From contig ONKQ01000015.1 of the NCBI GenBank assembly GCA_900318465.1, forward strand, positions 1 to 64,000: a DNA stretch of 64,000 bases, read 5' to 3'. The stretch comes from an uncultured Bacteroidales bacterium (lineage in GTDB: Bacteria; Bacteroidota; Bacteroidia; Bacteroidales; F082). The notes under the pieces were generated by a model, which was not told the origin of the DNA, ran no database searches, and worked only from the letters and a program-made list of their open reading frames with translations. Numbering within the stretch: the first letter of the stretch is position 1; the number at the start of each line of letters is the position of its first letter. The translations under genes were made by a program, and so were the position numbers. Below, in pieces: positions 20,588 to 45,208 of this stretch.

Positions 20588-20606
20588 GCAACAATACAAA
20601 GCAATT

Positions 20607-21762: not shown

Positions 21763-21803
21763 TTTTGCTCAATCTATAGACATACAACATTACTCTAAAA
21801 ACA

Positions 21804-21842
21804 CGAAATTTTCGTCGCGAAATTTTCGTCGCGAAAATTTCG
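21804..21842. promoter_or_regulatory. Three tandem palindromes before AAA+ ATPase copy 1
   Basis: CGAAA-T-TTTCG, CGAAA-T-TTTCG and CGAAA-A-TTTCG occur in a row with a 14-bp period (TCG spacers). Each 11-mer is a perfect palindrome around one base. On the minus strand they lie just after the -7 box at 21853-21846, that is, over the expected start of transcription and the 5' leader. This is a typical place for a repressor. Confidence 0.75.
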
Positions 21843-21845
21843 CTG

Positions 21846-21853
21846 CAAAGATA
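21846..21853 (-). promoter_or_regulatory. -7 box of AAA+ ATPase copy 1
   Basis: TATCTTTG on the minus strand matches TAnnTTTG, about 84 nt before the ATG at 21762. Confidence 0.6.
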
Positions 21854-21979
21854 AGGCTTTCCAAACAAGTTTTACAAGATGACAACATTTTTTTCATCCA
21901 AAAACAACTGTTTTTCTCAAGAAAAGGTTCTATTTCAATAGAAAGCTATATTTTTGCTGCCGTAATCATCACTAAAAAC

Positions 21980-23077
21980 ATGAAAAAGCCATTCTTACTT
22001 CTGTTGGCCTGCCTTGCGGCCACCATCTCTTTTGCCGGCAACCTGCTCAACGAGGGCTTCGAATACGCCAACCACGACTTTGAGAAACCTGTTGGCTGGA
22101 CTTGCGATGACAACAGTTGGCTCTGCGGCTATCTGGAAAAAGACCACAACCGCCTCCCCCACTCCGGCAACTGGTATGCCTTCAGCAATGCCGAGGAATC
22201 GTGGATGTACATGCCCATGTATCTCATCGAAAGCATGAAATACCGCTTCACACTGTGGGCCATCTCCGACGGCGAGTTCCTATTCGAAATTTGGGCTGGC
22301 TCCACGCCGACTTCCGGCGGTATGCACACGCTGTTCTATTCCACAACCATCGACAAGAATGAATATGAAACGGTATCGGCCTACGTGGAGACTATTCCCC
22401 CTGACTGCCAGTATTTTGGCTTCCGTGCCGTTGCCTTGAACGGTGCCTCCCACCTTACCATCGACGACGTTGAGGTTGACATGGTGGAACAATACACTTT
22501 TGAGGCTGAGGCCATTACGGGCGACACGGCCATGTATCCTGGAACCGAGGCCACGTTCCATTACCTCGTCCATAACACGGGCTACGACCCCGTAGACATC
22601 ACGATGCACCCGTCGAATGAATTTTTTACCAACTTTACCTGCACCTTTGACGGCGTGACGGGCATGACCATCCCCACCGAGCCTGACGAGATTGTAGAAG
22701 TCACGATGACGGCCACGCTGCGCCCTGAAATCGAACCTGGCACAGTGGCTTGGCTCGACATCCAAATGACCATCCCATGCAACTGCAACACGGCTATGGT
22801 GACGTTCTGGGTGACACCCTTGGACATCACACAGACTTCTGAAAACAATTCTTTGGAAATCAACGTATTTCCAAATCCCGCCACAGATTATATCGCCATC
22901 GAAGCGGACGGCTTGCAACGGGTTAGCATTATCGACCTCCAAGGAAGAACGATACTGAGCAAACAAGCGGCTGATGCCAATTCGGGCATTGATATCAGAG
23001 CTTTAAGATGTGGCCTATATATCCTCTCTGTTGAAACGAACCAAGGAGTGATGAAGCAAAGTTTCGTGAAACGGTAA
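21980..23077 (+). CDS. Exported protein with T9SS C-terminal sorting domain
   Basis: A 365-residue secreted protein. It has a signal peptide (MKKPFLLLLACLAATISFAG), then a beta-sandwich of about 150 residues resembling choice-of-anchor or cleaved-adhesin domains (NEGFEYANHDFEKPVGWTC; HSGNWYAFSNAEESWMYMP). A linker domain of about 100 residues follows, and then a T9SS type A domain (NVFPNPATDYIAIEADG...GLYILSVETNQG...QSFVKR). The ATG at 21980 is chosen as the start of the signal peptide, since the upstream frame has no such features. Likely surface adhesin or carbohydrate-binding protein; the ligand is unknown. Confidence 0.82.
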   Translation: MKKPFLLLLACLAATISFAGNLLNEGFEYANHDFEKPVGWTCDDNSWLCGYLEKDHNRLPHSGNWYAFSNAEESWMYMPMYLIESMKYRFTLWAISDGEFLFEIWAGSTPTSGGMHTLFYSTTIDKNEYETVSAYVETIPPDCQYFGFRAVALNGASHLTIDDVEVDMVEQYTFEAEAITGDTAMYPGTEATFHYLVHNTGYDPVDITMHPSNEFFTNFTCTFDGVTGMTIPTEPDEIVEVTMTATLRPEIEPGTVAWLDIQMTIPCNCNTAMVTFWVTPLDITQTSENNSLEINVFPNPATDYIAIEADGLQRVSIIDLQGRTILSKQAADANSGIDIRALRCGLYILSVETNQGVMKQSFVKR

Positions 23078-23108
23078 TCCTTCGTTATAGGTTTCAGGCC
23101 AAAAAGAT

Positions 23109-23143
23109 AGCGGCTCCGTACTCTAATGAAAGACGGAGCCGCT
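23109..23143. terminator. Terminator between convergent T9SS cargo genes
   Basis: AGCGGCTCCGT and ACGGAGCCGCT form an 11-bp perfect stem. The T-run lies on the minus strand (ATCTTTTTGG), so it mainly ends the minus-strand gene at 23167, and it can also serve the plus-strand gene. Confidence 0.8.
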
Positions 23144-23166
23144 TGTTGTATAAACCAATTGTCAAA

Positions 23167-25083
23167 TCATCTCACCACCACCTTCTGCACCTTCATGTCG
23201 TTGCCGCTGATAAGGCGGAACATGTAGACGCCAGGAGCGGCATTGATGCTCATGCTATAGCTGCCTTCAATCTGCTCGCTCTTCAGAATGCGGCCAGTCA
23301 CATCAACGACTTGCACGATGGCCTTGCCGTCGTTGTTGATGACCCAGTTGCCATTGCTGAAGAAGACGAAGCTGTCGTCAGTGGCATTGCCCGTGGCAAA
23401 CACCAGCTTGAAGCGGGTAGCATAGTCTGTTGTCTTGGCATCGAAGGAGTAGCTGGGGGTTTCAAGCAAGTCGACATCAACACCCGTCAGGTTGTCGATG
23501 AGGTGGAGATAGCTGAAACTGACTTCCTCGTTGCTGAAGCTGAGGGTATAAGTGCCATTTTTGGCAGCCTTGAAGTTGACCGGCATCTCGCCCATGTCGC
23601 TGTTGACAGAAACCACCGCATAGTCCTTATTGTCCTGCGGGATATAGACCTTGGTATTGTTTTCATTGAGCATGAACTTGGGCAAAGTGCTCTCTTCACC
23701 GAAACGGACAATGGCGCGGTCGATGGCAGCACCACGGTTTTGGGTGATGTTCATCGTAAGAGATGCACCTCTATTTGGTTCTTCAGTGCTGAAAGTCATG
23801 GTTTCGCCATCAGTCTCAGCAACGACAAAGATACCTTCCATAGCTTCAACGCTATTGCCTTCGCCAGTGATGATTTCCGTGCCGAATTCATTCATGACGT
23901 AAAACTCGCGGTCGATGTAAGCAGTGTTTGCGAAGGGGTTGCCCACAAGGTTCCAACCCGCGAAACGGGCGTTTGCATCATAAGCCAAAGTGACTTCGCC
24001 TTCGCCGCCGTAGGGGAAGCCCTTGAAGGTCAGCGTAACATCCCCACTGTTGGCATAAAGATAGCCTTTGCCAGGAAGGAGATTGTAGTTGCCATCGGTG
24101 CCCTCGTAATTAATCCATTCCAAATCTGAAGATTGGTTGAAATAGTAAAGGTCGAAGCTGTTTTCAAGCATGTTGGTCACGTTCTCAGGATCCACTTCGC
24201 CGATGGGGGAAGCGATGAGATAGTAATGGCCAATGCTGTCTTCCGCGTAACCTTCAATTTCCTTGGTGAAAGTTTGCTCCGTCACGAAATTGAGGACAAA
24301 AAGGTCGTTGAAGACATCCTGACCGATGTATGTATCGTTGACCAATTCCACAGTGGTGAAACACTTGGCGCGAAGGACAGCACCAGCTTCCGTGTCATAC
24401 AGATAGAAATCGATGATGTCGCCATTGTTGCCCAAAATGTTCATATCGACAAAATAACCCATATTGAAGTCTGTCCAATCAGTAAGCGGGGTCTTGTCGC
24501 CACGGCACTCGTTGTCGCAGAAGGCACCCACTTCCCACGTGGCTCTGTCAACAAGCTCACCGTCAATTTGAATCTGGGCGGTGAGGGCCATACCATTGCC
24601 CGAATAACTTGAGGATTGAATCCAAGGATAATCAGGACCAAAGGGAAGTATTTGCTCCGAAACGAACTCAAGGTACAAGCCGGATTCAATGCCACCGTAA
24701 TGGTATTCCTCGGCTCCACTAAACTCAAAAGTCTGCTGACAATTTACATACTCTGTGTCCGTGTCATGGTCATAGGCTTTCAAGGTGATGGTTTGGCCAA
24801 TCTCAGGCTGGTTGGCAAATATGGTCAAATAGGTGTAATACTGCCCTGGCAGACCGACAGGATAGGGTTCGAGGAGACGGATAACGCCTCTGACTTCATC
24901 GCCAATGAACGCGGCAATTTCAATTGCATCAGATGCTTGAAGCACGCCGTCAATCTTCACTTGCGCAGTGATGTGGTTGCGGTAGTCATACAAGCTGGAA
25001 TTGGGTGCTGTCCAATGATACTCTTGGGCAAACATCATTCCACTGAGCATCAAGGCTGTAACAATCATTATCAGTTTTTTCAT
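23167..25083 (-). CDS. Exported T9SS cargo protein with duplicated domain
   Basis: A 638-residue secreted protein with a signal peptide (1-19, ending MMFAQ). Two related N-terminal repeats are visible: HITAQVKIDGVLQ..EIAAFIGDEVRG (about 36-67) and ALTAQIQIDGELV..EVGAFCDNECRG (about 165-195). A beta-rich middle with GWNLVGNPFANTAYI follows, then YLHLIDNLTGVDVDLLETP and a T9SS type A sorting domain (WVINNDGKAIVQVVDVTGR...GVYMFRLISG...KVVVR). Function unknown, presumably surface-exposed binding. It has its own promoter box at 25125-25132. The LHLI..TGVDVDLL part is shared with the endonuclease at 37404. Confidence 0.8.
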   Translation of the reverse strand: MKKLIMIVTALMLSGMMFAQEYHWTAPNSSLYDYRNHITAQVKIDGVLQASDAIEIAAFIGDEVRGVIRLLEPYPVGLPGQYYTYLTIFANQPEIGQTITLKAYDHDTDTEYVNCQQTFEFSGAEEYHYGGIESGLYLEFVSEQILPFGPDYPWIQSSSYSGNGMALTAQIQIDGELVDRATWEVGAFCDNECRGDKTPLTDWTDFNMGYFVDMNILGNNGDIIDFYLYDTEAGAVLRAKCFTTVELVNDTYIGQDVFNDLFVLNFVTEQTFTKEIEGYAEDSIGHYYLIASPIGEVDPENVTNMLENSFDLYYFNQSSDLEWINYEGTDGNYNLLPGKGYLYANSGDVTLTFKGFPYGGEGEVTLAYDANARFAGWNLVGNPFANTAYIDREFYVMNEFGTEIITGEGNSVEAMEGIFVVAETDGETMTFSTEEPNRGASLTMNITQNRGAAIDRAIVRFGEESTLPKFMLNENNTKVYIPQDNKDYAVVSVNSDMGEMPVNFKAAKNGTYTLSFSNEEVSFSYLHLIDNLTGVDVDLLETPSYSFDAKTTDYATRFKLVFATGNATDDSFVFFSNGNWVINNDGKAIVQVVDVTGRILKSEQIEGSYSMSINAAPGVYMFRLISGNDMKVQKVVVR

Positions 25084-25124
25084 TCGTTATGATTTTTAAT
25101 AATTATACTTAATTTTTAAAGGTG

Positions 25125-25132
25125 CAAAAATA
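25125..25132 (-). promoter_or_regulatory. -7 box of the T9SS cargo gene
   Basis: TATTTTTG on the minus strand, about 42 nt before the ATG at 25083. Confidence 0.55.
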
Positions 25133-25143
25133 CGTTTTTTTAT

Positions 25144-28100
25144 TTATTGTGCCGACGGAAAAGTGAAAGATGTTTCGCCTGCCGCCTTCGAATTGTAGAT
25201 ATAGCCATTGCCGGGCTGCAATATTTGGAGAGAGCCTCCCCAACCATAGACAGTATAGGTGGCATAGGTTCCATTAGCCGCAGAAATCACGTCGCCTACA
25301 GTCGGCGTTAGATTCGCCAAAGCGTTGGTCACGCTCATGCTTTGTGTGCTAACAAAACCAATCCAGTTGTTGCCTGGATTCAGCGTAATTGTAACATCGG
25401 CCGGATTAACGGCAGGGCCTGTCAACGTAATCTCGCAAGCTGTATTGGTTTGGATTTTGTACATCTTGCCAGCTTCGATGGTAGTGAGAGAACCTCCCCA
25501 GCCATAGGTTGGGTTGTAGGAGGCATATTGGCCTTCCTTGTTCGAAATCATAATACCGTTGCTGCCTAAAGCCGCTTCAAGTTGGGCAAGAGTGATTCCC
25601 ACATTGGCAGTCCACCAATTGAAGCCAGCCGCAAATTGGAATGTTTGTTCATCATTGCCAGAGCCGCTGCCTTCCGTGACTTCACCACTAAGAGTAATGC
25701 TTTGCATGGTGGTGCCCGAAGTGAGGGTCATCGTGCCGTTGTAATTGCCTTGGGTCAGGTTTGCGCTTAGGCGCACATAAAGCATCTGTTGCAAGTTGCC
25801 GTTGGCAGGTGTCAGGCTGAGGGTGGAAGCATACGTGCTGCCATTGTTGCTAACCTCATAGCCTGTTGGCATGGCGACAGTCACATTGCCCTGCAAGTTG
25901 GCACCAATGAGGGCCACGCTTTGAGCTTCTGATGGGCCTTCGCCTTCGGCATAAGCGAAATCGGAAAGTACATCGGGCGAAACGGAGAGATAACCGTCAG
26001 TGCTGGGGATTTCCTTGGTGAAAATGATTTGGCAGTTGCTGGTACTGGTGTAAGCGTTATAACTGCCGCCAGTCTGAGGATTTAACGGAGTCTGGTTGTA
26101 ATTGTCATTGTATTGGTAAATGGCTCTGTTTTCGCCAGTAGAATATGTGTAGAAGGCTCTGCCACTACTTCCCGAGTAACTTCCTGTGTTATCATCAAAC
26201 GTAATCAAAATGTTGTTATTGCCATCATACTCGAACGGGGTGTTCAGAGTAAATGTGTACCAGTCATTATTAACGAATGTTTGAGTACCGGAATAGACCA
26301 GATGGCTGGAAGCCTCGGCTACCCAAGAAGTGATGGTTGAACTTGTGGTGTGTGACATATAGATGTCAATGGTTCTCGCACCCGAAGTGGAGTTACCGTT
26401 GTATTTGAAGCTGACGGCGGAAATAGTGCCTGCGTCACCCACCTCGGCGGTGGTGTAAATCTGCTGCGTGGTGGAATATTTGTACCACACATTGGAAGGT
26501 AGGTATGCCAAGGTGTTGCTGCCACTGCCCACATTCACCTCGCCGCCTTGCGGAACGAGGAAAATGCCACTCACGGTGACATCGTAGTCCGGCATGGTGA
26601 AGCTGTTTCCACTTACTGCAACGGTGGTGTTCACATCACCAGTCTTGTAGACTATCCAACTGTTGAAAACATAGCCCGTTTCAGGTGTGGCGGTAAGGTT
26701 GATGGTGGTGCCTTGAAGGGCGTAAACAGGGTCAGCGGTGATAGTGCCATTCATTACAGAAGCCAAAGTGACCTTCATGCCTTCCACAAAGGTTGCGCTC
26801 ACCGTGACATTGCTTTCAGGCATGACGAAAGTGTTGTTGGTCACAGGGATGAGGTTGTTGTTGGCATCCCTGACCTCCCACGACGACAGGCAATAGCCCG
26901 TTTCGGGCGTGGCCGTCAGGGTGACAGTTTGGGAGCCGTAGGCCATTTCAGGGGCACTGATGCAGCCGTGTTCGGGTTGGTTGCATGTGATGGTGTATTG
27001 CGCTCCACCAACGACGGAAATGTTGCCGAGATAGGTCACCTTATTATATCCGAACACACACAAGGTAAGGTCTTGGATTTGCCCAGGAGCCGTCAATGTG
27101 ATGTTGGCTGTGCCGTTGCTCACCGTGGCCGAACCCAAAATATTGTGGTTGGCGTCAGTGATGGTGGCCAAAGCTCCGTTTCCATTGGTCACATTGACCG
27201 TGTAGGTGGTAGCGGCCAAATTGATGGTGCCGGGATGGGTCACGGTCATAGCCTGTGGGGTCTTGGTGCGGAGCATCATGGTCGGGTCGCCGTAAAGAAT
27301 CCAAGCTTGATAGGTTCCAACGGCAGAGTAGTCCGAAGGGCTGTAGTGATCGAAAATGCCCAACAAACCGTTGATGGAAGTGCCGCCCCAAGTGCGCTTG
27401 ATGTTGCTGTTATAACTTTCCACCAGGATATCGATGCACTCGTCCTGTGCCCACATGGGCGGAATCCAAGGTTGGTTAATATAGGACATCAATGCACCGA
27501 CAGCACCGGTAGGCGTCAGGTCGGAGCTACTATAGGTGGCATGCATCCAAGCCTCGGCGAAGCAGTCGTTGTTTTGACCGATGGTGTAGTTGCCACCGTA
27601 TGAGGTCGAGGTGTTGTCGTATTTACCAACAAGGCAGGCCACCGACCAAATGAAAGGCAACTTGTTGCTGTTGGTGAGGTTGTTGACATGCGTGTTGCTG
27701 TAGCTTGCCACGCCCCACATTTGAAGGTTGCCGTGGTTGCAGTAATTGACAATGCCCACACCGCTATTAATATGGCTGCTGATGGAGGAAGCCGTTCCCG
27801 TGTAACCGTTCAAGTTCTCATAGTCTTGATACACGGTGTTGTAACCATAGTTGAGCAAGTCCGTGCGAATGTTGTCCATGTGTTGGTAGTCGTCCTCGTT
27901 GTTGTGCCCCGAGCCACCTTCTTTTCTTGAGATGCCGTCAGCATTTTGCAACCATGTGGCGGATGTGGTGAGGTCGCGCTCGTAGGTGATGGTGCGGTTG
28001 ACTTGAGTGGTCACTTGGGCGGCAGTTTGAGCCGAGAAACGACCAATGAAAAGATCGTTGTAGATGTCGTTACCCACAATTTGGCCGTAGGGGTTGTCAC

Positions 28101-29094
28101 CCAGACCGCCGTATGAAGAGCCACCACCCGTGTAAGAATAACCCGGAATCTGGGCAACGTCACCAACGAGCAGCACATGCGTAAGGTTGTTGTTGGCATT
28201 GTATTGGTTCTGGATGTAGGTCTTGATGGCCGAAGAAGTACTACCCGCCGTGCTGGTGCCCACGATGGTGGTGTTCACGCCACGGGTTTTCTTCCAGTTG
28301 ACGAAGTCGGTCATTGAACTGAGGAAGCCGTCGTAGCAGATGATGAGCAGGTCGCCTTCCTCGTCGACGGGGCTGTATTTGGCCATGCTATCCTCATAGT
28401 TGATGAAGTGACGTTGATACATGTTCTTGAAGTCGGCATCCATCTTCACAGTGTTGCTCTTGCGGGCTTCCATCACGTTTTCGCCGTTGTCGTCCACCTT
28501 GTACATTTCGATTGTCATGTCGTAGTAGACGCGCAAGGTTTTCGTGACGGGATTGTAGGCGTAGGGATAAACCACCATGTTCTGTCCACGGAAATCGCGG
28601 ATGATGTATGGCTCATAAAGACCTACATTGTTGGCAGGGAAAAATGCGTCCTGATTGTAGCACTCACCGTAGGTGTAAGGCACCGTGGCGGGGTCAATCT
28701 GGCGGCTGAAGTCGCCTTTTGATGGAGCCACTTCGATGTTCTCAAAATCCCTGTATTGGGCAAACACAATGCGGACGCTCATACGGGCGCGGGCGCCGAT
28801 GATGGCGGGGATGCCCGTCATGGGTACGTTGGGTTCGCCTGCTTTGGCCGTACTGATGGCCTTGGGCATGGAAACGATTTTGGCTTCACCTCTCGGGGTG
28901 GTGACATTCGTCGTGTAAAACCCGGGAACTTGTACGTTCACCTTGATGCTTCCCTCCGAGGAGGAAACGAGCTGCGTGCGGAAGGTCTCAGGCTGGTCGC
29001 TGAGAATACTGTTCCATTCCGGCGCATTTTGAAGCTGTGCAAAGGCCGTCATGCAGAGGGCCGAGAGTAAACAAACTAAAAATCCTTTTTTCAT
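25144..29094 (-). CDS. Gingipain-like C25 cysteine protease with InlB-type repeats
   Basis: A 1316-residue exported protease. It has a signal peptide (1-19), a propeptide region (about 20-240) and a C25 catalytic domain with VGDVAQIPGYSY, the catalytic His in VNYCNHGNLQMWG (His454) and the catalytic Cys in SVACLVGKYD (Cys487). Two InlB-B-like repeats follow (ITCNQPEHGCISAP..TLTATPETGYCLSSW, and a second of the same type), then a beta-sandwich domain (NVWYKYSTTQQIYTTAEVG). The end is a non-canonical C-terminal module of about 165 residues (FNWWTANVGITLAQLEAAL...YGWGGSL...TFPSAQ). That module recurs in the next two genes. Last gene of a three-protease operon, 18 nt after the carboxypeptidase gene. 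Confidence 0.88.
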   Translation of the reverse strand: MKKGFLVCLLSALCMTAFAQLQNAPEWNSILSDQPETFRTQLVSSSEGSIKVNVQVPGFYTTNVTTPRGEAKIVSMPKAISTAKAGEPNVPMTGIPAIIGARARMSVRIVFAQYRDFENIEVAPSKGDFSRQIDPATVPYTYGECYNQDAFFPANNVGLYEPYIIRDFRGQNMVVYPYAYNPVTKTLRVYYDMTIEMYKVDDNGENVMEARKSNTVKMDADFKNMYQRHFINYEDSMAKYSPVDEEGDLLIICYDGFLSSMTDFVNWKKTRGVNTTIVGTSTAGSTSSAIKTYIQNQYNANNNLTHVLLVGDVAQIPGYSYTGGGSSYGGLGDNPYGQIVGNDIYNDLFIGRFSAQTAAQVTTQVNRTITYERDLTTSATWLQNADGISRKEGGSGHNNEDDYQHMDNIRTDLLNYGYNTVYQDYENLNGYTGTASSISSHINSGVGIVNYCNHGNLQMWGVASYSNTHVNNLTNSNKLPFIWSVACLVGKYDNTSTSYGGNYTIGQNNDCFAEAWMHATYSSSDLTPTGAVGALMSYINQPWIPPMWAQDECIDILVESYNSNIKRTWGGTSINGLLGIFDHYSPSDYSAVGTYQAWILYGDPTMMLRTKTPQAMTVTHPGTINLAATTYTVNVTNGNGALATITDANHNILGSATVSNGTANITLTAPGQIQDLTLCVFGYNKVTYLGNISVVGGAQYTITCNQPEHGCISAPEMAYGSQTVTLTATPETGYCLSSWEVRDANNNLIPVTNNTFVMPESNVTVSATFVEGMKVTLASVMNGTITADPVYALQGTTINLTATPETGYVFNSWIVYKTGDVNTTVAVSGNSFTMPDYDVTVSGIFLVPQGGEVNVGSGSNTLAYLPSNVWYKYSTTQQIYTTAEVGDAGTISAVSFKYNGNSTSGARTIDIYMSHTTSSTITSWVAEASSHLVYSGTQTFVNNDWYTFTLNTPFEYDGNNNILITFDDNTGSYSGSSGRAFYTYSTGENRAIYQYNDNYNQTPLNPQTGGSYNAYTSTSNCQIIFTKEIPSTDGYLSVSPDVLSDFAYAEGEGPSEAQSVALIGANLQGNVTVAMPTGYEVSNNGSTYASTLSLTPANGNLQQMLYVRLSANLTQGNYNGTMTLTSGTTMQSITLSGEVTEGSGSGNDEQTFQFAAGFNWWTANVGITLAQLEAALGSNGIMISNKEGQYASYNPTYGWGGSLTTIEAGKMYKIQTNTACEITLTGPAVNPADVTITLNPGNNWIGFVSTQSMSVTNALANLTPTVGDVISAANGTYATYTVYGWGGSLQILQPGNGYIYNSKAAGETSFTFPSAQ

Positions 29095-29112
29095 TTGGTA
29101 TAAAATTGAGTT

Positions 29113-29620
29113 TTACTTGTTCGTTGAAGAAGTCGGATAGGTAAAGGTCTTGTCCGTTGCCGCTTTCGACTTGTATATGAAGCCTTCACCTGGGTTAAGG
29201 TCGCTAATGCTTCCTCTCCAGCCGATTCCTTGATAATAAGTGGCAACGCCGTCTTTGGTTTGGATGTAATCCATATTGGTAGGCGTGAGGTTCGCAAAGG
29301 CATCGCTGAGGCTCATGCTTTCCGTGCCGATGAAGCCAATCCAGTTGACACCTGGTACCAACGTGATGGGGTGTTCGGCGGGGTCAACCAAAGCGCCTTC
29401 CACCGTGATAGTGCAAGCCTCGTTGGTCTGAACCTTGTACATGGTGCCCGCTTCAATGCTGGTGAGATTGCCACCCCAGCCATAGGTTGAATTAGTGGCA
29501 TAGTGGCCTTCCTTGTCGGTGATTGTGATGCCATTGCTACCTAAAGCCGCTTCAAAATCAGCCAAAGTGATGTCCGCATTCGGCGACCACCAGTTCCAAT
29601 CGGCAGCAAGCTCGAAAGTC
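29113..29620 (-). repeat. Direct repeat copy A (shared protease 3' end)
   Basis: About 500 bp coding for the C-terminal module of the carboxypeptidase. By eye it matches 31444-31945 with only scattered substitutions over most of its length, for example in the stretches around 29230-29390 and 31560-31715. The repeat covers the module from WNWWSPN to the stop codon. Confidence 0.75.
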
Positions 29621-31425: not shown

Positions 31426-31443
31426 TTCATTCAACACCTTGCA

Positions 31444-35721: not shown

Positions 35722-35778
35722 GAGGTTGATGATTTTAATTAATTCAATCTTAGTTCTTTATCTTTGAAAAACAAGGCG

Positions 35779-35786
35779 CAAATTTA
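35779..35786 (-). promoter_or_regulatory. -7 box of the three-protease operon
   Basis: TAAATTTG on the minus strand (TAnnTTTG), about 58 nt before the ATG at 35721. No other such box was seen in the 18-nt gaps between the three genes. Confidence 0.55.
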
Positions 35787-35920
35787 CACAAAAAAACAAT
35801 ATAAAGTCTCTTCATTGTACATTTTTAATAAAAAAAGTGCTGCATCAATATCATGATACAACACTCAATATTGAAAGATAAGTAACTGTTCATAATTAAA
35901 CTGCAATATCTTTTGACTTT

Positions 35921-35991
35921 GGGACACGGGACTTCGAGACTTCGGGACAAGCAAATTCCTCGTAGTTTCGCAGTCCCATAGTCTCGTGTCC
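35921..35991. repeat. Intergenic inverted repeat of GGACACGRGACT type
   Basis: GGACACGGGACTTCGAGACT at the left faces the complement of GGACACGAGACTATGGGACT at the right, giving an imperfect hairpin of about 70 nt with internal near-tandem GAGACT/GGGACT units. The rest of the gap from 35722 to 36036 holds the operon promoter and A/T-rich text, with no gene. Confidence 0.6.
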
Positions 35992-36036
35992 AATATGTAA
36001 ACTAAATTTGCTCATCTACTTAGTAATCTTTGTTCA

Positions 36037-37338: not shown

Positions 37339-37356
37339 TTTCTTAAAAATTTGCGG

Positions 37357-37364
37357 CAAAGATA
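37357..37364 (-). promoter_or_regulatory. -7 box of the cysteate synthase-like gene
   Basis: TATCTTTG on the minus strand, about 20 nt before the ATG at 37338. Confidence 0.6.
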
Positions 37365-37383
37365 CGAAAAAGTAAAAATACAG

Positions 37384-37403
37384 ATAGTAAATATATTTAC
37401 TAT
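37384..37403. promoter_or_regulatory. Perfect 20-bp palindrome at the cysteate synthase promoter
   Basis: The half-site ATAGTAAATA is followed directly by its exact complement TATTTACTAT. The palindrome abuts the stop codon of the upstream gene and covers the region 20-39 nt before the -7 box, where the -33 element would lie. It looks like a dimeric regulator site. Its A/T richness and lack of loop speak against a terminator. Confidence 0.7.
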
Positions 37404-40400
37404 TTATTTCACTTCGGTTTTCTGAACGCCGCTGCCTTCGTTGAAGAGCAACATAAACCGTGCCTCAGAATCTGTAGGACGTGCCTCGAAAGTGTATGCT
37501 GGCGTGGCCAAAAGGTCGATGTCGGTTCCAGTGAGTCGGTCGATGAGGTGAAGATAGTCCAAGCCGAGACCTTCGGTTTGAACCACAAGCGTCTGCCGAC
37601 CTGCATGACGGGCTTCATAGCAAAGGACGAAAGAGGTCGCTCTGTCGCGCACCAACATGACGTAGGGCTGACGGTCGCGCAAAAGATAAAACGGCGCATG
37701 TTCCCCATTCAAATCGACCAACGGCATACTGACACCATCGCTCAACTTGACAAAGACTTTGTCTTCACCGATACCGAGACAAAGGTATGGTTCCTTGTCG
37801 GTGTTCTCTCCCCTGCGTTGCGGGTTGAGGGTCACGCTTTGTCCTGTGGCATTGGCTTTCACCAAAAAGCCCCGACCTGCCGGCACGGTGTTGGATGTGG
37901 TATAAGTCCAGGCACTGCCGTTGTCGATATAATAGTAGCCATCAGAAACTGCGTCCGTCTTGGTGTAGGTGATTTCGTGCGCCTTGGGATTGCCGAGCAG
38001 GTTGAAGCCTTTCACGACTTCATTGCTGTTGCCATAGCTCAAACTGATGGTTTCGGCGGAATTGCCATTGCTGAGAACGCCGCTCATGCGCAAAGTGACA
38101 TTGGGCTTGTGGGCATATAGATAGCCTGAACCCGACGCCATGACAAAGTCGGCTGTGTGATTCTTATAGTTATACCACTCCAAATCAGCGTCTTCGTCGT
38201 AGGCATAAAGATCGAATTTGCTGCCAATCATGGTTCCTGCCGGAGCATACGACACGAATGGTGCCGCAATGGTGTACCAACCGCCATCCGTGGTATAGGC
38301 ATTGATGCTTTTCTTGAATGTGGCCATCACGCCATCATTGTGGTGCATGAATTGCGCACCGTCCTCAAGAATCAGATGGCTGGCATCGTTGCAAGTGGCT
38401 GTTCCACTAACCGTAAGTGTGGCACCACTACGAACCGTGTGTTTGTCGAACGGAAAGAGGTTGGCAATGGTCTCATTTTCAGGATGATCGTATTCCTCGC
38501 TGCGGATGAAGAGGCAAACATCTTGCTGGCCTGTTGAATAACAAGAAAAAATAGTCGAGCCTGAGTTGTATCTGATAATATTGCGGGTGTTTGTCCCTTG
38601 CGCAACAATGGCAGCTTTGTGGTTATTGTCGAAAGTGATGTTCCATTGTCCGTTGGCATCGTTAGTGGCTTGTGTTTTCAGGTAATTGTTGCTACTGCTT
38701 GCGGCATAAAGATAGCCGCCTGCGGTACCCCAATTGGCATCGAAGAAAGTCCATGCGCCAATAGAACCGCCTAAAGTCAATTCGCAAACCGTGGTGCCAA
38801 TACTTGCGATGCAGTTGTTGCTAATTGTCACATCAGCTGCCCCTCGGTTATTGTTGTTTTGGGTAGTACTCATGGCTTTTCCGGCAGAGGTGTTCACAAT
38901 CAGATAAGTCCTTCCCGCAACGAGTTGGCTCGCGTCCGTCACCAAGTAATATTGATGGGAAAACGAACCGATATAAGCAAAAACGGCACTCACCGAAACA
39001 TCGTCTGCCGGCATTTCAAACTGGTTCTCAGCAACGGTGACATTATCGCCCGAAGCAGTGGTAACCATCCAATAATCAAGCTCGTAACCCGTTTCTGGCG
39101 TGGCCGTAAGGGAGATGGTGCTGCCTTCCACAGCCTCAGTCGGATTGGCACTGATGCTGCCATGCTCGATACCAGTGGCGCAAGCGATGCTGTAGAGAGG
39201 CAACCATTGGGCATAAAGCGTCAAGTCGTTCAAAAGCGTGACTATTGCGCCATCGAAATAGGTGGTTCCGCTGCCGTCGGCGGCGGTGTTCCAGCTGTCA
39301 AAGGCATAGTTTTCGCGGGTGAAAGTGTTGGCTTCCAAAGCAGTAGGTTCAAACTCATTGACGCTCTGGTTATAACTCGAACCTGAGCCACCGTTGGGAT
39401 TAAACTGGATGGTATGGGTCGGTGTACTGCTGATGCCCATTTTTTTATAAAGCTGGACGGGTTGCTGACTGCTGTAGCTGGATGATTTGTAATAGCGAAA
39501 ACGATGGTCGTTGTTATTGAATCTCATCACGGATGTGTTGGAGGTGATTTTGACGCCATCGGACTCAAGCGCTATGGTATTCAATTTGGCCGAGGTTCCA
39601 AAATTGAGCGCATTTGAGCCAGAAGAGCCAGAGATGTATTTTCCATTGTTTGTTCCTCCGTTGACCTTGATGGAATAGCCGCCCGTCATCGGAGCAACGG
39701 TAATTGAAACCATGCCGTCGTCAGCGATAGTATTTTCTGCAATGGGCTTGGAAACATAGCAATTGGTTTGATCTATGCCCGTCCAAACATAGCCTTCAGT
39801 TGCACTGTTTTCATAAACCAAAATATAATCCCCGCTCCAGTCTGTCGGGGCTTCTGTGACCTTTACGTAAGTATAACTCGAAGGCTGGGCAAACGAAGCC
39901 GACACCGTAACGTCGTAGGCAGGCATGATGAACGTGTTGCCCGTACCTGAATAGACGATGGTATTGATGTCGCCCGTCTTGTAAACATAATAGGAATATA
40001 GGACGTAACCGATTGCGGGAGAGGCTGTTAAGGTAATCGTGGTTCCAGATTGGGCGCTGGTGGCACTCACATTCACGCTTCCGTGGCTCACCGTGCCTTG
40101 CGTGATGGCATAGTAAGTGGTATTCTGCACAAACGTCGCACTCACCGTAACGTTGAACGACGGCATGGTGAAGGTGCCATTGTCGCTCACCGAAACGGTT
40201 GTGGTTGGGTCTCCCGTCTTGAACACCGACCAACTGCCGAGCATATAGCCTTGGTTGGGTGTGGCTGTGAGGCTCACCATGGTGCCTTCCACGGCGGTCG
40301 AGGGTGCCGAAATGCTGCCATGCTGAACAGCGGTACAAGTGATGTTGTAAGTGACCCCCATCCAGCCCTCTTCCCAAATGATATGGGCATATTCTGGATG

Positions 40401-41177
40401 GTCGATGAAGGGATTGCGATTGCCTTGTATACCAAACACGACGTTGTTTCGGTCAATTTCCTTTTGGCTCACAGGGTCGTTGTCGCTCCAACTCAGAAGC
40501 ATGTTGATGGCCCAAGGCTTGATGACCGATTTGTTGGTCATGCCGCTGTTGCCCCAATCCTCGTCCTCGCCATAGTAGCGCACACTCATATACATCATAG
40601 CGCGGGCGAAGTCGCCTTTGTATTCGTCAATCGGTTCGAAAACAGTTCCCGAATATCCCAACGACGACTTGCAAGGCCCTAATTTTGAGCCGTTTTGTGA
40701 AATCCACGAGGCATTATTCACCTCACCGAAAGGGTAGCTGCTCCTTTGTGCGTTGACAAAGCCGTCGGTTGGAAAGATGTGGTGCATATCGCGCCCCGGC
40801 GTGGTTTGTTCATCACCGCTGAACCAACTTTTGGGCCACGAGTGCTCGCGGTTGTAGCAGTCACCTTCCTGCTCGTATTCCCCGCATTGGTTGTTGCCAT
40901 TGTAATAATAATTGTAGCTGTAATTGGCACCGTCGGAATACATGTCCCACACCACATTGTTGCCTTTGTTGTCGGTGCTCCAGAAGGCATTCCAAATCTG
41001 TTGGTAGGAGATGACAGTGTGCCCTTGGATGATGTCGTGCAAGGCCACCTTCAATTCATCACCCGTCTTGCCCGTGGCGTTATCGTAATACCCGTTTGGA
41101 ATTTGTGCATAAAGGCCGTTGCCCACAACGACAGCCAAAAGAGCCACCACTTGCAGCTTAACGAAAAAAGACCTCAT
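37404..41177 (-). CDS. Exported endonuclease I with InlB-type repeats
   Basis: A 1257-residue secreted nuclease. It has a signal peptide (1-24, ending GLYAQ) and an N-terminal endonuclease I (EndA/NucM) domain with CYNREHSWPKSWF (108-120) and DMHHIFPTDGFVNAQRS (130-146), the metal and catalytic motifs. InlB-B/Flg_new-like repeats follow, with units such as VQHGSISAPSTAVEGTMVSL and VSHGSVNVSATSAQSGTTI, then a beta-domain, a further repeat pair and a domain ending YLHLIDRLTGTDIDLLATP...RFMLLF. It ends with GSGVQKTEVK and lacks a recognisable T9SS C-terminal domain, though the same preceding domain in the 638-residue cargo protein is followed by one. It lies 31 nt after mscS, so probably co-transcribed. 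Likely role: extracellular DNA breakdown. Confidence 0.87.
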   Translation of the reverse strand: MRSFFVKLQVVALLAVVVGNGLYAQIPNGYYDNATGKTGDELKVALHDIIQGHTVISYQQIWNAFWSTDNKGNNVVWDMYSDGANYSYNYYYNGNNQCGEYEQEGDCYNREHSWPKSWFSGDEQTTPGRDMHHIFPTDGFVNAQRSSYPFGEVNNASWISQNGSKLGPCKSSLGYSGTVFEPIDEYKGDFARAMMYMSVRYYGEDEDWGNSGMTNKSVIKPWAINMLLSWSDNDPVSQKEIDRNNVVFGIQGNRNPFIDHPEYAHIIWEEGWMGVTYNITCTAVQHGSISAPSTAVEGTMVSLTATPNQGYMLGSWSVFKTGDPTTTVSVSDNGTFTMPSFNVTVSATFVQNTTYYAITQGTVSHGSVNVSATSAQSGTTITLTASPAIGYVLYSYYVYKTGDINTIVYSGTGNTFIMPAYDVTVSASFAQPSSYTYVKVTEAPTDWSGDYILVYENSATEGYVWTGIDQTNCYVSKPIAENTIADDGMVSITVAPMTGGYSIKVNGGTNNGKYISGSSGSNALNFGTSAKLNTIALESDGVKITSNTSVMRFNNNDHRFRYYKSSSYSSQQPVQLYKKMGISSTPTHTIQFNPNGGSGSSYNQSVNEFEPTALEANTFTRENYAFDSWNTAADGSGTTYFDGAIVTLLNDLTLYAQWLPLYSIACATGIEHGSISANPTEAVEGSTISLTATPETGYELDYWMVTTASGDNVTVAENQFEMPADDVSVSAVFAYIGSFSHQYYLVTDASQLVAGRTYLIVNTSAGKAMSTTQNNNNRGAADVTISNNCIASIGTTVCELTLGGSIGAWTFFDANWGTAGGYLYAASSSNNYLKTQATNDANGQWNITFDNNHKAAIVAQGTNTRNIIRYNSGSTIFSCYSTGQQDVCLFIRSEEYDHPENETIANLFPFDKHTVRSGATLTVSGTATCNDASHLILEDGAQFMHHNDGVMATFKKSINAYTTDGGWYTIAAPFVSYAPAGTMIGSKFDLYAYDEDADLEWYNYKNHTADFVMASGSGYLYAHKPNVTLRMSGVLSNGNSAETISLSYGNSNEVVKGFNLLGNPKAHEITYTKTDAVSDGYYYIDNGSAWTYTTSNTVPAGRGFLVKANATGQSVTLNPQRRGENTDKEPYLCLGIGEDKVFVKLSDGVSMPLVDLNGEHAPFYLLRDRQPYVMLVRDRATSFVLCYEARHAGRQTLVVQTEGLGLDYLHLIDRLTGTDIDLLATPAYTFEARPTDSEARFMLLFNEGSGVQKTEVK

Positions 41178-41208
41178 AGGATTTTTTGGATTAATGTGTT
41201 CCGCATGA

Positions 41209-42120
41209 TTACGATTGCTTCAAATGCACGTCCATCTGCGGGAATGGGATGTGCAGCCCCTCTTGGGCGAAAGCCTTGTAAACGCGCTCGTTCATGGCGA
41301 AGAAAACAGGCCAATAGTCGGCGGAGTCCACCCAGACGCGCACGGTGATGTCGACGGAGCTGTCGTTGAGTTTCAGCAGCTCGATGAAAGGTTCAGGGTT
41401 CTTCTTGATTTTCGGGTCGGCCTCACACAGTCGTTTCAGCACGGCCTTAGCGTGGTCGTAGTCGTCGCCGTATGCCATGGAAAAAACCCAATCCACACGG
41501 CGGGTATCTTGCTTCATGAAGTTGGTCATGATGCCCGTCGAGAGGATGCCGTTGGGCAGGATGATCTCCTTGTTGTCCGTCGTCAAAAGATGGGTGTTGA
41601 ATATCTGAATCTCGCTCACCTTGCCCTCGAAACCTTGCGCTGAAATAAAATCACCCACCTTAAACGGCCGGAACATGACAATCATCACACCTCCGGCAAA
41701 GTTCTGCAAAGTGCCACTCAAAGCCATGCCCACGGCCAATCCAGCCGATGCCAAAAGTGCCACCAACGACGACGTATTGATTCCTAAAATACTGATAATG
41801 CTGATGATAAGGATGAAATAGAGCAACACCCCAACCAAATTCGAAAGGAACGAGTGTACCGTAGCATCGCCATGCTTGCTCATCAAACCGTTGGCCATCC
41901 ATTTTTTCACCAATTTGATGACCCAACGACCAATGATGAAAACGACAATAGCAGCCAAAATCTTGAGGCCCAACGGAACAACATAATCATGCACCAATTG
42001 GGGCATCCACTCCGAAACGGGGGTAGTGGTGAGTTGTTTTATGCCATCCACCATTCCGTTGACTGCGGTGGTGTCTTTTATCGATTGGGTCATTTCGTTG
42101 ACGATGCTGTCGTTTTCCAT
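41209..42120 (-). CDS. mscS: Small-conductance mechanosensitive channel (MscS family)
   Basis: A 303-residue inner-membrane channel that opens under membrane tension to release solutes. An N-terminal extension (residues 1-50) is followed by three membrane helices (about 50-70, 90-115, 120-145). The pore helix has VALLASAGLAVGMALSGTLQNFAGGVMI, the MscS signature, then the beta-domain FRPFKVGDFISAQGFEGKVSEI and LPNGILS. Length matches the short MscS type. It has its own promoter, divergent to the exosortase-like gene. Confidence 0.92.
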   Translation of the reverse strand: MENDSIVNEMTQSIKDTTAVNGMVDGIKQLTTTPVSEWMPQLVHDYVVPLGLKILAAIVVFIIGRWVIKLVKKWMANGLMSKHGDATVHSFLSNLVGVLLYFILIISIISILGINTSSLVALLASAGLAVGMALSGTLQNFAGGVMIVMFRPFKVGDFISAQGFEGKVSEIQIFNTHLLTTDNKEIILPNGILSTGIMTNFMKQDTRRVDWVFSMAYGDDYDHAKAVLKRLCEADPKIKKNPEPFIELLKLNDSSVDITVRVWVDSADYWPVFFAMNERVYKAFAQEGLHIPFPQMDVHLKQS

Positions 42121-42137
42121 AATGCTGAAATTTGCTG

Positions 42138-42145
42138 CAAAGATA
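42138..42145 (-). promoter_or_regulatory. -7 box of mscS
   Basis: TATCTTTG on the minus strand, just before the mscS ATG. Confidence 0.6.
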
Positions 42146-42160
42146 TGGTTTATTGTTGGA

Positions 42161-42189
42161 TTTGCATTTCAAATTATTTTCTACTTTTG
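42161..42189 (+). promoter_or_regulatory. Promoter of the exosortase-like gene
   Basis: TACTTTTG at 42182-42189 matches TAnnTTTG, and a TTTG at 42161-42164 may be the -33 element with a slightly short spacer. Confidence 0.55.
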
Positions 42190-42206
42190 CGGAAAAATTT
42201 GTTTCG

Positions 42207-42809
42207 ATGAAAATCATTGCCGACTTTAAGGCCTATTGCAACAACCCAAAAAACCTCAGCACAGTCAATGTTGGGCTTTTTATCTTATTGATAATCAGCT
42301 TCCATTTCCTTTATTTAGGTTGGCAAGCCTTGGGCTATTGGCCTATCGGAAAGCTTATTTACAAGTTGATGGTATGGTCGGTCGACTTGGTTTACAGCCA
42401 AGCCTGTTGGCTCCTCGACCGCGTTTTCCATGTCAACATCACCACTGTCACATCGGAACGTCTCCTTGCCACACCCAATGTGGACGATGGCTGGGCCCGT
42501 GTCATCGTGGCACCCGAATGTGCCAGCCTCAAGCAATGGATGCACTGGCTCTTCCTCATGATTCTTTTCCCCGGTCCGTGGAAACACAAACTGTGGTATA
42601 TTCCCGCCGGCCTCGTCATTATCGAGTGGACCAACGTTGTGCGCATTTGCGGCGTGCTGCTGATGCAAGTGCCGTGGCCCAATAGCTTCCACCTCGCTCA
42701 CGATTATATATTTAAGGTGTTTTTCTACCTTGTCATCTTCCTGATGTGGATGCTCTGGGTGGAAAAGTTCTATAATCCGACACTAAAAAACAAGCAACAA
42801 CATGAATAA
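42207..42809 (+). CDS. Exosortase/archaeosortase-like membrane transpeptidase
   Basis: A 200-residue polytopic membrane protein. Hydrophobic helices lie at about 22-40, 47-72, 110-122, 130-150 and 170-187. The three residues of the exosortase active site are in the right order and setting: Cys105 in VAPECASLKQW, Arg146 in NVVRICGVLL and His165 in FHLAHDYIF. Exosortases cleave C-terminal signals and pass the protein to another anchor. Unlike most, this gene has no polysaccharide or substrate genes beside it. It overlaps a ROK-like kinase gene by 8 nt. The ATG at 42207 follows the promoter and opens the family-like N-terminus. Cognate substrates are unknown. Confidence 0.8.
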   Translation: MKIIADFKAYCNNPKNLSTVNVGLFILLIISFHFLYLGWQALGYWPIGKLIYKLMVWSVDLVYSQACWLLDRVFHVNITTVTSERLLATPNVDDGWARVIVAPECASLKQWMHWLFLMILFPGPWKHKLWYIPAGLVIIEWTNVVRICGVLLMQVPWPNSFHLAHDYIFKVFFYLVIFLMWMLWVEKFYNPTLKNKQQHE

Positions 42810-43899
42810 CAGTCCCATCATCTTCATCCTCGATGCCGGTGGCACGGGGTTCAAATTCTCGGCCGTGCAAGATTCGCGCGAAATCATCGAACCTTTCACC
42901 ATTCCTTCGGCGGCACCCAACCTTGAGGAAGTGCTGCAAAAAATCATCACCGGTTTCCATGAGTGCGAAACACGCTGCGGCTCAAAGGCTGCGGCCATCA
43001 GTTTCTGCTTCCCCGGTCCCGCCGACTATCCCAACGGCATCATCGGCGACTTGGAGAACCTGCCCCATTTTCGCGGCGGAGTGCCTTTGAAGGCCATGTT
43101 GGAGAACGAATTTCACATCCCCGTTTTCATCAACAACGACGGCGACCTGTTTGCCTACGGCGAAGCCCTCAACGGCCTGCTTCCCGAGGTGAACAAGTTG
43201 CTGGAGCAGCAACGCAACCCGAAACGCTACAAGAACCTGCTCGGCGTGACCATCGGCACGGGCTTTGGCGGCGGTATTGTAATTAATAAGGTGTTGGTCA
43301 ATGGCGACAACTCTGCCGGCGGCGAAATCAACCGCCACCGCAACCCGCTTTATCCACAAACCAGTGCCGAAGACAGCATCAGCATCCGCGCAGTGCGCCG
43401 TGTGTATGGCCGCGAGGCTGGCATCGATTTCGACAAAACACCCCACCCCTACGACATCTACAAAATCGCCATGGGTCATCAACCTGGCAACAAGGAAGCC
43501 GCCCTGAAATCGTGGGAGGAATTGGCCACAGCTTTGGCCGATGTGTTAGCCAATGCCATTTCGCTCGTCGACGGCATCGTTGTCATCGGCGGCGGACTCT
43601 CGGGCGCATGGCCTATTTTCATGCCCATACTCATCAAGAAGATGAACGAGCCTTTCAAGGGACTCAACGGCAGCCCCTTCAGCCGTATGGAAACCGAAGC
43701 CTACAACCTGATGGATGCCCAAGACATGATCCGCTTCACCGAAAAGACGGGCAAGATGGTCAAAGTGCCTTTCAGCGACCAAGAAGTGTGGTACAACCCG
43801 ACCAAGCGCATTGGTGTTGGTGTCACCAAACTCGGCACCACCTCGGCAGTGGCCATCGGCGCGTATGCTTTTGCCATAGAAAAATTGAAAAACAATTGA
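42802..43899 (+). CDS. ROK-like sugar kinase without the usual zinc motif
   Basis: A 365-residue ASKHA-fold protein. It has phosphate-1 motif ILDAGGTGFKFSAV (9-22), FCFPGPADYPNGIIGDLENLP, FINNDGDLFAYGE (catalytic Asp region), phosphate-2 VTIGTGFGGGIVIN and adenosine-side VIGGGLSGAWPIF. This is the ROK/glucokinase pattern. The Cys-rich zinc motif typical of ROK proteins, after the GE(I/L) block, is absent: the sequence there reads GGEINRHRNPLYPQTSAED. The substrate is therefore uncertain. The start codon lies inside the 3' end of the exosortase-like gene, so the two are translationally coupled. No sugar transport genes are nearby. Confidence 0.8.
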   Translation: MNNSPIIFILDAGGTGFKFSAVQDSREIIEPFTIPSAAPNLEEVLQKIITGFHECETRCGSKAAAISFCFPGPADYPNGIIGDLENLPHFRGGVPLKAMLENEFHIPVFINNDGDLFAYGEALNGLLPEVNKLLEQQRNPKRYKNLLGVTIGTGFGGGIVINKVLVNGDNSAGGEINRHRNPLYPQTSAEDSISIRAVRRVYGREAGIDFDKTPHPYDIYKIAMGHQPGNKEAALKSWEELATALADVLANAISLVDGIVVIGGGLSGAWPIFMPILIKKMNEPFKGLNGSPFSRMETEAYNLMDAQDMIRFTEKTGKMVKVPFSDQEVWYNPTKRIGVGVTKLGTTSAVAIGAYAFAIEKLKNN

Positions 43900-43933
43900 T
43901 TTTTAATTACTGATTATCAATTATTTATAACTA

Positions 43934-43978
43934 ACACAACATTGTGTTACACAAACTTGTGTTACACAATGTTGTGTA
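43934..43978. promoter_or_regulatory. Three tandem palindromes before AAA+ ATPase copy 2
   Basis: ACACAA-CA-TTGTGT, ACACAA-AC-TTGTGT and ACACAA-TG-TTGTGT follow each other with a 15-bp period. Each has perfect 6-bp arms. The last one ends 15 nt before the -7 box (43994-44001), so it covers the -33 region. The word differs wholly from the CGAAA-N-TTTCG set of copy 1, but the three-unit layout is the same. Confidence 0.8.
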
Positions 43979-43993
43979 TTGGAAAATTTTGCC

Positions 43994-44001
43994 TATTTTT
44001 G
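43994..44001 (+). promoter_or_regulatory. -7 box of AAA+ ATPase copy 2
   Basis: TATTTTTG matches TAnnTTTG, 19 nt before the ATG at 44020. Confidence 0.6.
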
Positions 44002-44019
44002 CAGCAAAATCAGAACGTC

Positions 44020-45144
44020 ATGGATAACAGACCTTTCATGTTCGGCATTCCGGTTGAAGACAATCATTTCATCGGTAGACAATCAGAAGTCGAACGCCTT
44101 GCAGCCAATTTCCGCTATGGCATCAATACCATACTGCTGTCGCCCCGACGCTGGGGAAAAACCTCGTTGGTCAACAAAGTTGCCTCAATGGTCAACTCAA
44201 AAGACGTCATTGTGGTCACAATGGATATTTTCTCCTGCCGTAATGAATACGACTTCTTCAACACCTTTTCGGAAAACATTTTGAAGCAAACCGCATCGAA
44301 GATAGAAGAATGGAAAGACTTGGCCAAAGGCTTCATTGAGAGGCTTGTACCCAAGTTTTCCCTATCGCTTGACGGTCAGGCCGAATATGGCGTTTCATTG
44401 GGCATCACCCCAAAAACCCACCAACCTGAAGAAGTGCTTTCGCTCCCCGAAATGATTGCAGACCGCAAAGGTTGCCACATTGTTGTTTGCATCGACGAGT
44501 TCCAACAAGTGGGCGAATTTCCCGATTCACTCAACGTCCAAAAACGCATGAGAACAGTTTGGCAGCACCAACAAAATGTTTCCTACTGCCTATACGGAAG
44601 CAAGATGCACATGATGACCAACCTGTTTCAGAAAAAAAGCTATCCTTTCTATAAATTCGGCGAAATTCAATACCTGAAAAACATCCCTTTGGAAACATGG
44701 ATGCCCTATATCCAAGGTGGTTTCGCCAAACAAGGGAAAACCATTTCCGGGCAATTTGTGCAACAGCTATGCGAAAGTGTTGACTATCAATCTTCATACG
44801 TCCAGCAACTCGCATACGACACCCTGCTTTTGACCAACCATGAGGTGACAGAAGAGATACTGAAAGTAGCACTCAACGACTTGATTGATCAAAATTCCGT
44901 CGTTTATATCGAGCAAACCCAGTCGTTAACCAGTTATCAACTCAATTTCCTCAGAGCGGTATTGTCGGGCCAAACCTCCGATTTCGGCAAAAAAGAAGTT
45001 CGCGACAACTTTGATTTAGGTTCCCCATCCAATGTCACTCGACTAAAAAACGCACTAATCGACAAGGAATTGATTGAACTGACAGCAAACGGTTACATCA
45101 TAGGCGACCCCGTTTTGAGGCTTTGGTTGAAACGTATATTGTAA
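44020..45144 (+). CDS. AAA+ ATPase of the archaeal-type (ATPase_2) group, copy 2
   Basis: A 374-residue P-loop ATPase, the same length as copy 1 at 20638. It has an N-terminal FIGRQSEVERL box, Walker A variant SPRRWGKTS (41-49), Walker B VCIDEFQQVG (146-155), a YCLYGSKMHMM sensor-like strand and a C-terminal winged-helix-like region (GSPSNVTRLKNALIDKELIEL) ending in DPVLRLWLKRIL. The middle regions of the two paralogues differ widely, so they are old copies or separate arrivals. The ATG at 44020 is chosen because upstream in-frame starts lie inside the palindromes and promoter. Target and role unknown. Confidence 0.82.
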   Translation: MDNRPFMFGIPVEDNHFIGRQSEVERLAANFRYGINTILLSPRRWGKTSLVNKVASMVNSKDVIVVTMDIFSCRNEYDFFNTFSENILKQTASKIEEWKDLAKGFIERLVPKFSLSLDGQAEYGVSLGITPKTHQPEEVLSLPEMIADRKGCHIVVCIDEFQQVGEFPDSLNVQKRMRTVWQHQQNVSYCLYGSKMHMMTNLFQKKSYPFYKFGEIQYLKNIPLETWMPYIQGGFAKQGKTISGQFVQQLCESVDYQSSYVQQLAYDTLLLTNHEVTEEILKVALNDLIDQNSVVYIEQTQSLTSYQLNFLRAVLSGQTSDFGKKEVRDNFDLGSPSNVTRLKNALIDKELIELTANGYIIGDPVLRLWLKRIL

Positions 45145-45208
45145 GCTTGCGTGCCAAAAATTCCCACTCCTCCCCTATCCTTTTGACTATCAAAACAGAA
45201 AAAATTAT

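Follow-up and report, generated by a model that had tools for sequence, protein, structure and literature searches.

Why should an ATPase gene that is both mobile and conserved come with a binding site of its own? The question is raised by a 64,000-nucleotide stretch of DNA (the window) from an uncultured Bacteroidales bacterium (assembly GCA_900318465.1, contig ONKQ01000015.1, positions 1 to 64,000). Two genes in the window encode AAA+ ATPases of 374 residues each, and each gene is preceded by three tandem palindromes of its own sequence. We consider it probable, from comparison of sequences, that both are mobile ATPase genes, each furnished with a private operator to which its protein would bind and through which it would regulate itself.

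Copy 1 (P0001) lies on the reverse strand at 20638–21762 and copy 2 (P0002) on the forward strand at 44020–45144, the latter read from the ATG at 44020 within the 43942–45144 frame. The open reading frames (ORFs) bear out the first-pass annotation, which had placed two 374-residue ATPases with RRxGKT and DEFQ motifs at these positions: the motifs read LRRMGKT and FDEFQ in copy 1, and PRRWGKT and IDEFQ in copy 2. The two proteins are 26% identical and are thus distant paralogues. Their equal length is only loosely typical, because the homologues listed span 354–388 residues (mostly 371–382). Their AlphaFold models (m32314463d90f for copy 1 and mcd7f45cdcefd for copy 2; mean predicted local distance difference test scores of 89.9 and 88.8) share a fold, in which an AAA+ core, a lid and a winged helix follow in the order found in the archaeal-type structures 2fna and 2qen. 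On its model, P0001 is an origin recognition complex (ORC)/archaeal-type AAA+ ATPase with a C-terminal winged helix. Among Pfam families, ATPase_2 (PF01637, cut-off 33.2) scores 21.0 bits for P0001 and 29.7 bits for P0002, both below, and AAA_14 (PF13173, cut-off 27) scores 32.2 bits for P0001, above, and 25.2 bits for P0002, below. DUF4143 is absent from the Pfam matches of both proteins. The source genome holds seven loci of this ATPase family, with different upstream sequences.

The copy 1 array (21804–21842) consists of three CGAAA-N-TTTCG palindromes with a period of 14 base pairs (bp): CGAAATTTTCG at 21804–21814 and again at 21818–21828, and CGAAAATTTCG at 21832–21842. It lies directly downstream of a reverse-strand TAnnTTTG box, TATCTTTG (21846–21853), and therefore over the expected transcription start. 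The copy 2 array (43934–43977) consists of three ACACAA-NN-TTGTGT palindromes with a period of 15 bp, at 43934–43947, 43949–43962 and 43964–43977. It stops 16 bp before a forward-strand box, TATTTTTG (43994–44001), and therefore covers the expected −33 region. We take TAnnTTTG to be the Bacteroidota −7 consensus, and both the consensus and its spacing are assumed here from general knowledge. A scan of all 64 kb for three-unit palindromic arrays (period 13–17, score of at least 0.86) gave five hits, every one of them in these two arrays, which are real and beyond chance. Both ATPases thus have an iterated palindromic site in their own promoter. The number of palindromes and the two periods were as first described. 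The further claim that the two arrays share count and layout holds for the count of three, but not for the period or the position relative to the promoter. A search of the source genome for single copy-2 sites finds exact matches nowhere but in the three units of the array, and copy 2 therefore appears to have a regulon of one. Sites with one mismatch occur at two extra places, no more than in the backward control.

Arrays of this kind are usual among homologues. The P0002 search gave matches in 42 of 60 genomes, the source genome included; 80 places were collected for a first homologue set, and 150-bp upstream regions were read. In this set (n = 111 homologues), an upstream array score of at least 18, from a maximum of 20, was reached by 66 of 111 homologues compared with 8.9% of dinucleotide-shuffled sequences, 11 of 110 stretches immediately past the genes, 2 of 111 inside genes and 1 of 109 at −450 to −300. 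Among the upstream regions listed, the array sequences vary by subclade, examples being TTATTAGTAATAA, GTGGACCACAA, ATTTCAAAT, ACGTAATTTACGT and TTTTATGGTAATC. A fresh P0002-clade set was drawn from genome_contigs, comprising 80 of at least 566 confirmed relatives and reduced to 77 loci (one lacked an ATG and two were identical to earlier loci); its records are nearly all titled Bacteroidales or subgroups thereof, with three from Fibrobacter succinogenes. When periods of 11–19 bp were compared at each locus, 15 bp was the best period in 72 of these 77 loci. Of 74 loci in the P0001 clade, 47 had 14 bp as the best period and 11 had 15 bp, compared with 4 of 74 for each of the two periods inside the same genes. 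Finally, a three-unit 15-bp array (score of at least 0.80) stands before 56 of 79 ATPase genes and before 3 of 290 neighbour genes. Two of these three are AT-rich; the third, at L126, is a genuine-looking exception. Homologues without arrays, or arrays beside unrelated genes, had been named as findings that would break the link between array and ATPase; both were looked for, and what was found leaves the link standing.

The array and the protein vary together in the P0002 clade. A 6-bp half-site around the even centre of the palindrome was extracted for 107 members, using an array scan that covered two or three units only (L025 and L043–L045 have more than three, as seen by eye). Of these, 99 were kept; L027, L029, L156 and L161 were left out for scores below 0.83, and L031, L189, L192 and L194 for an odd half-site judged by eye to be out of register. 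Average-product-corrected mutual information was then calculated between the half-site positions and 373 protein columns. Residue 341 is the column that covaries most with positions 2 and 3 of the half-site, residue 337 with position 5 and residue 355 with position 6; residue 345 ranks second for position 2. In the P0002 AlphaFold model, helix 336–348 (45025–45063, forward strand) is predicted to be the recognition helix within the winged helix, with 353–360 as the wing; residues 337, 341 and 345 (S337, R341 and A345 in copy 2) lie on a single face of this helix. The corresponding helix of copy 1, residues 338–350 (20713–20751, reverse strand), is assigned from the secondary structure of the model, its role by homology with copy 2.

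The pairings can be read as a code. Arginine or lysine at 341 goes with G at position 3 in 66 of 66 rows, and isoleucine, valine, alanine or asparagine with a base other than G in 30 of 30; the three rows with threonine or glycine at 341 have G. Lysine at 341 goes with G at position 2 in 6 of 8 rows. Serine at 337 goes with G at position 5 in 66 of 66 rows, and alanine or glycine with a base other than G in 33 of 33. One member that combines A337 with R341 (L046) has the half-site TTGTTT, in line with the code. Positions 1 and 4 are near-invariant (T in 98 and 99 of 99 rows, respectively) and are uninformative, because there is hardly any variation in them. A register-free test on 66 rows, in which array similarity was compared with identity in 9-residue windows after removal of overall identity, placed the five best of 366 windows within residues 333–345, with partial correlations of up to 0.60 (mean for all windows 0.02, s.d. 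0.17). The rule was also fixed beforehand and applied to 30 held-out loci, of which 8 had already served for training, 1 duplicated a locus seen before and 2 lacked an ATG. Of the 19 read, 6 scored below 0.83 and were not counted. Among the 13 counted, the prediction was right for position 3 in 11, for position 2 in 7 of 7 and for position 5 in 10 of 10; four of the 13 rows are near a TTATTA training group, and none has S337, so that the position-5 figure bears on the A/G337 half of the rule. The failures were L232 and L249, the latter cut by a contig end. Together, these results suggest that proteins of the P0002 clade each recognize their own array by way of a single helix.

Several observations weigh against this reading. 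On a tree built from residues 1–300 (111 rows), serine at 337 changes once and position 5 twice, with two changes for the pair taken jointly; arginine or lysine at 341 changes five times and position 3 four times, with seven jointly; and lysine at 341 and position 2 change five times each, with seven jointly. Because the sequences are related and changes on the tree are few, few of the co-changes are independent. Residues V173, Y77, N81 and P136, all remote from the winged helix, score only slightly below 337 and 341 at positions 3 and 5, and of the top 30 covarying columns 12 lie within residues 1–135. The register-free test has a second peak at P0002 residues 125–141, a stretch that is also distant from the winged helix along the chain. 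For the P0001 clade (32 rows), the windows that score best are at residues 303–313, which form the first helix of that domain, with a correlation of 0.33. The original proposal that the winged helix of the ATPase reads the operator thus fits the copy-2 clade, where the recognition helix covaries best, but fits the copy-1 clade less well, where the signal is weaker and falls on the first helix. The arrays themselves are not universal: in 27 of 74 P0001-clade members the best period is not 14 bp (in 11 it is 15 bp and in 16 another), and these 27 include a near-identical group (L034, L037, L039, L055, L059 and L063) that has no tandem array. The exceptional array at L126 stands before a toxin–antitoxin-like pair. 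A crude ORF call places a same-strand ORF no more than 30 bp past the stop codon at 35 of 175 loci, so that not every copy need be a lone transcript.

At L126 itself, the ATPase-type 15-bp array (1309–1354) is followed by a nucleotidyltransferase/HEPN pair (family named by eye) and then by an ATPase that has an array of its own; between them there seems to be a repeat of the preceding gene's end.

The arrays are placed where they could act on transcription. The TAnnTTTG box is present in 96 of 103 array-bearing P0002-clade upstream regions compared with 5 of 209 background segments. Where array and box are both present, the array overlaps −33 to about +15 in 87 of 96 P0002-clade promoters and in 51 of 54 P0001-clade promoters; a protein bound there would block the polymerase. 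We propose that each gene is a mobile single-gene cassette whose ATPase recognizes the private 14- or 15-bp palindromic array in its own promoter. Two protomers would sit head to head on each unit, the recognition helix of each winged helix entering one half-site, and adjacent dimers would cooperate through their ATPase domains. An occupied array would block RNA polymerase at −33, −7 or +1, and the ATPase would thereby hold its own level low until released by ATP binding or hydrolysis, or by another signal. We infer the binding, the dimer geometry, the cooperativity, the repression and the ATP switch, and for copy 1 also the role of the recognition helix.

The gene and its array behave as a mobile unit of about 1.25 kb, judged from sequence comparisons. 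Among the copies listed, some are up to 98.7% identical in unrelated surroundings. To place the ends of the unit, 32 pairs were picked in which at least one flank was unmatched or only partly matched. In 19 of these, the shared stretch begins 68–168 bp before the ATG, often at about the array's outer edge, and its other end falls from 21 bp before to 27 bp after the end of the gene; in the other 13, one flank is shared further or the stretch ends elsewhere. For copy 2, the approximate unit (array, promoter and ORF) is 43890–45150 on the forward strand, with ends good to some tens of bp. Its site is empty in four congeners (L214, L215, L216 and L217), in which the ROK-family gene stands next to the ribonucleotide reductase gene; no clear target duplication was seen there by eye. 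The shared unit holds one ORF, the ATPase, and has no transposase or recombinase of its own. For copy 1, the site beside the neighbouring elongation-factor-G-like gene holds another ATPase in genome G016 and a remnant in G018, and no ATPase in the seven other loci checked; the intergenic space after this gene (20588–21860) is a possible insertion hotspot.

No neighbour family recurs in more than 6 of 79 P0002-clade loci (366 neighbour ORFs), and several of the neighbour clusters listed are the same locus in close relatives. Among 183 aligned same-genome pairs, the highest identity is 58.1%. Of 136 pairs of copies at least 60% identical, none shares a genome (93 loci, 26 genomes; 5.86 expected from label shuffling), which descent of single orthologues may explain as well. 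The ratio of non-synonymous to synonymous substitution rates (dN/dS) is 0.02–0.07 in the 10 of 12 pairs in which it could be computed; this purifying selection points to a conserved function. The ATPases had also been described as possibly selfish or defence-like. Mobility fits the first term, but the dN/dS values tell against it, and the unit holds no transposase. Relatives in phage and plasmid records are few and distant (7 loci in viral_contigs at 25–48% identity; 2 phage records; 28 plasmid records, all below 60% identity). The second term found no backing, the best matches to anti-phage defence families being weak (PADLOC, E = 4.6 × 10−4 and 17.3 bits, with no curated cut-off; NCBIfam, 17.2 bits against a cut-off of 370), although the ATPases may have a defence role of a kind not yet described.

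An own-type array follows the gene as well as preceding it in 7 of 106 loci, 39–55 bp past the stop codon. In one subclade (L015, L016, L017, L040, L153, L154 and L199), the ORF is flanked by arrays in this way.

The arrays could have another primary use. They might be iteron-like work sites, such as an origin, a partition site or a place for loading onto DNA, overlapping the promoter through adjacency and repressing it as a side effect, as happens in iteron plasmids. The fold of the ATPases matches Orc1/Cdc6 proteins (some bound to origin DNA) and TnsC, arrays can stand on both sides of the gene, other ATPases of the source genome have direct repeats of their own (10 of 25, described below) and copies more than 60% identical never share a genome, all of which would suit such sites. 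We nevertheless judge them unlikely, since the position of the array is tied to −33, −7 and +1, seven loci with different upstream sequences would be many for origins in one genome, and no partner helicase or replication gene recurs. Alternatively, the ATPase may be merely the regulated gene, with a separate host or cassette regulator binding the array. The weak covariation in the P0001 clade would suit such an arrangement; however, covariation in the P0002 clade is centred on the ATPase's own recognition helix, the 107 members have 24 distinct half-site strings (some out of register) that would require many matching regulators, and at most 6 of 79 loci have a neighbour family in common. Taken together, these points make a separate regulator distinctly improbable.

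Mobility invites a third possibility, namely that the arrays are the ends of a transposable element that overlap the promoter by chance, with the ATPase a TnsC- or MuB-like helper of transposition and the transposase supplied in trans. The unit does start upstream of or near the array and end about at the stop codon in 19 of 32 pairs, empty sites exist, one subclade has arrays on both sides and TnsC is among the fold matches. Yet 99 of 106 loci lack an own-type array within 250 bp past the stop, recent duplicates within a genome are absent among 183 aligned pairs, no transposase family was noticed among the recurrent neighbours listed and the copy-2 empty site has no clear target duplication by eye, so that we give transposable ends very little credence.

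The proposed self-regulating ATPase has partial counterparts among known systems. The archaeal ATPase_2-type proteins SSO1545 (2fna) and PAB2304 (2qen) share its fold at 16–18% identity, although the ATPase_2 scores here are below cut-off; we know of no function or operator for either. Orc1/Cdc6 initiators likewise combine AAA+ and winged-helix domains, and DNA-bound structures of them are among the best matches, the comparison being of fold alone. At archaeal origins, the Orc1/Cdc6 gene adjoins its own repeated binding sites, a likeness to the present ATPases. So too, iteron plasmid Rep proteins have a winged helix, tandem sites beside their own gene and autoregulation, but they belong to a different fold family; no replicon is shown for the present ATPases, whose sites are short palindromes in the promoter. 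STAND regulators such as MalT and IniR also join an ATPase to a C-terminal DNA-binding domain. Of the two, IniR is dedicated to the regulation of a single operon, and its ATPase domain has been likened to SSO1545 (PMC5760070). Unlike STAND regulators, the present ATPases have no sensor repeat domain, their proposed target is their own gene, and many relatives have their own sites. DUF1703 proteins of Cardinium and others (AAA-ATPase_like with PDDEXK_9) are described as expanded, diverse, horizontally moving and of unknown role (PMC6387759), and as linked to PF01637 (PMC1913061). P0002 has a weak PF09820 match, and both families are expanded, diverse and mobile, but the present ATPases end with a winged helix and lack the nuclease domain. 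A crude look at six PF09820 loci of the source genome revealed no comparable array.

In Bacteroidales of gut and rumen, the ATPases considered here make up a large family with no role assigned to it and with at least 566 relatives in one clade. Its members are single genes at differing genome places, and most of those examined carry their own array at the start. Cultured carriers include Bacteroides rodentium JCM 16496 (L169) and Prevotella sp. P6B1 (L149). The covariation provides a first molecular handle, in that the code (R341 with G3, K341 mostly with G2 and G3, and S337 with G5) predicts the target of a member. If true, the family would offer a large natural collection of regulators that resemble one another but differ in operator, of use as orthogonal repressors in Bacteroides engineering.

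Repeats of another kind were observed at the AAA_14/DUF4143 ATPases, which have 49 matches in the source genome. In 10 of 25 promoters examined (L276, L278–L281, L283, L284, L286, L287 and L289), an 11-mer of the locus's own sequence occurs at least three times at an even spacing of 23 or 32/33 bp; 0–20% of the shuffles of each promoter reach three copies, spacing disregarded. It may thus be common for ORC-like ATPases of these bacteria to have repeated sites of their own in the promoter. A wider and rather doubtful idea is that Bacteroidales host a class of mobile single-gene ORC-like ATPases, each with a private iterated site (14- or 15-bp palindromes, or direct repeats of 23 or 32/33 bp for AAA_14/DUF4143). 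Site specificity in such a class might diversify through a few recognition-helix residues so that many modules share a cell while close relatives do not, like plasmid incompatibility groups or phage immunity types, and the site would then be a working address and not merely an operator.

Two further observations concern the distribution of the cassettes. An orphan 14-bp array elsewhere in the source genome (G000:C51:49377–49401, L121) stands before a short ORF in which a Walker-A-like piece is retained, as seen by eye, and probably marks a decayed ATPase cassette. L130 and L142 each have both a P0001-type and a P0002-type ATPase, no more than about 1.5 kb apart.

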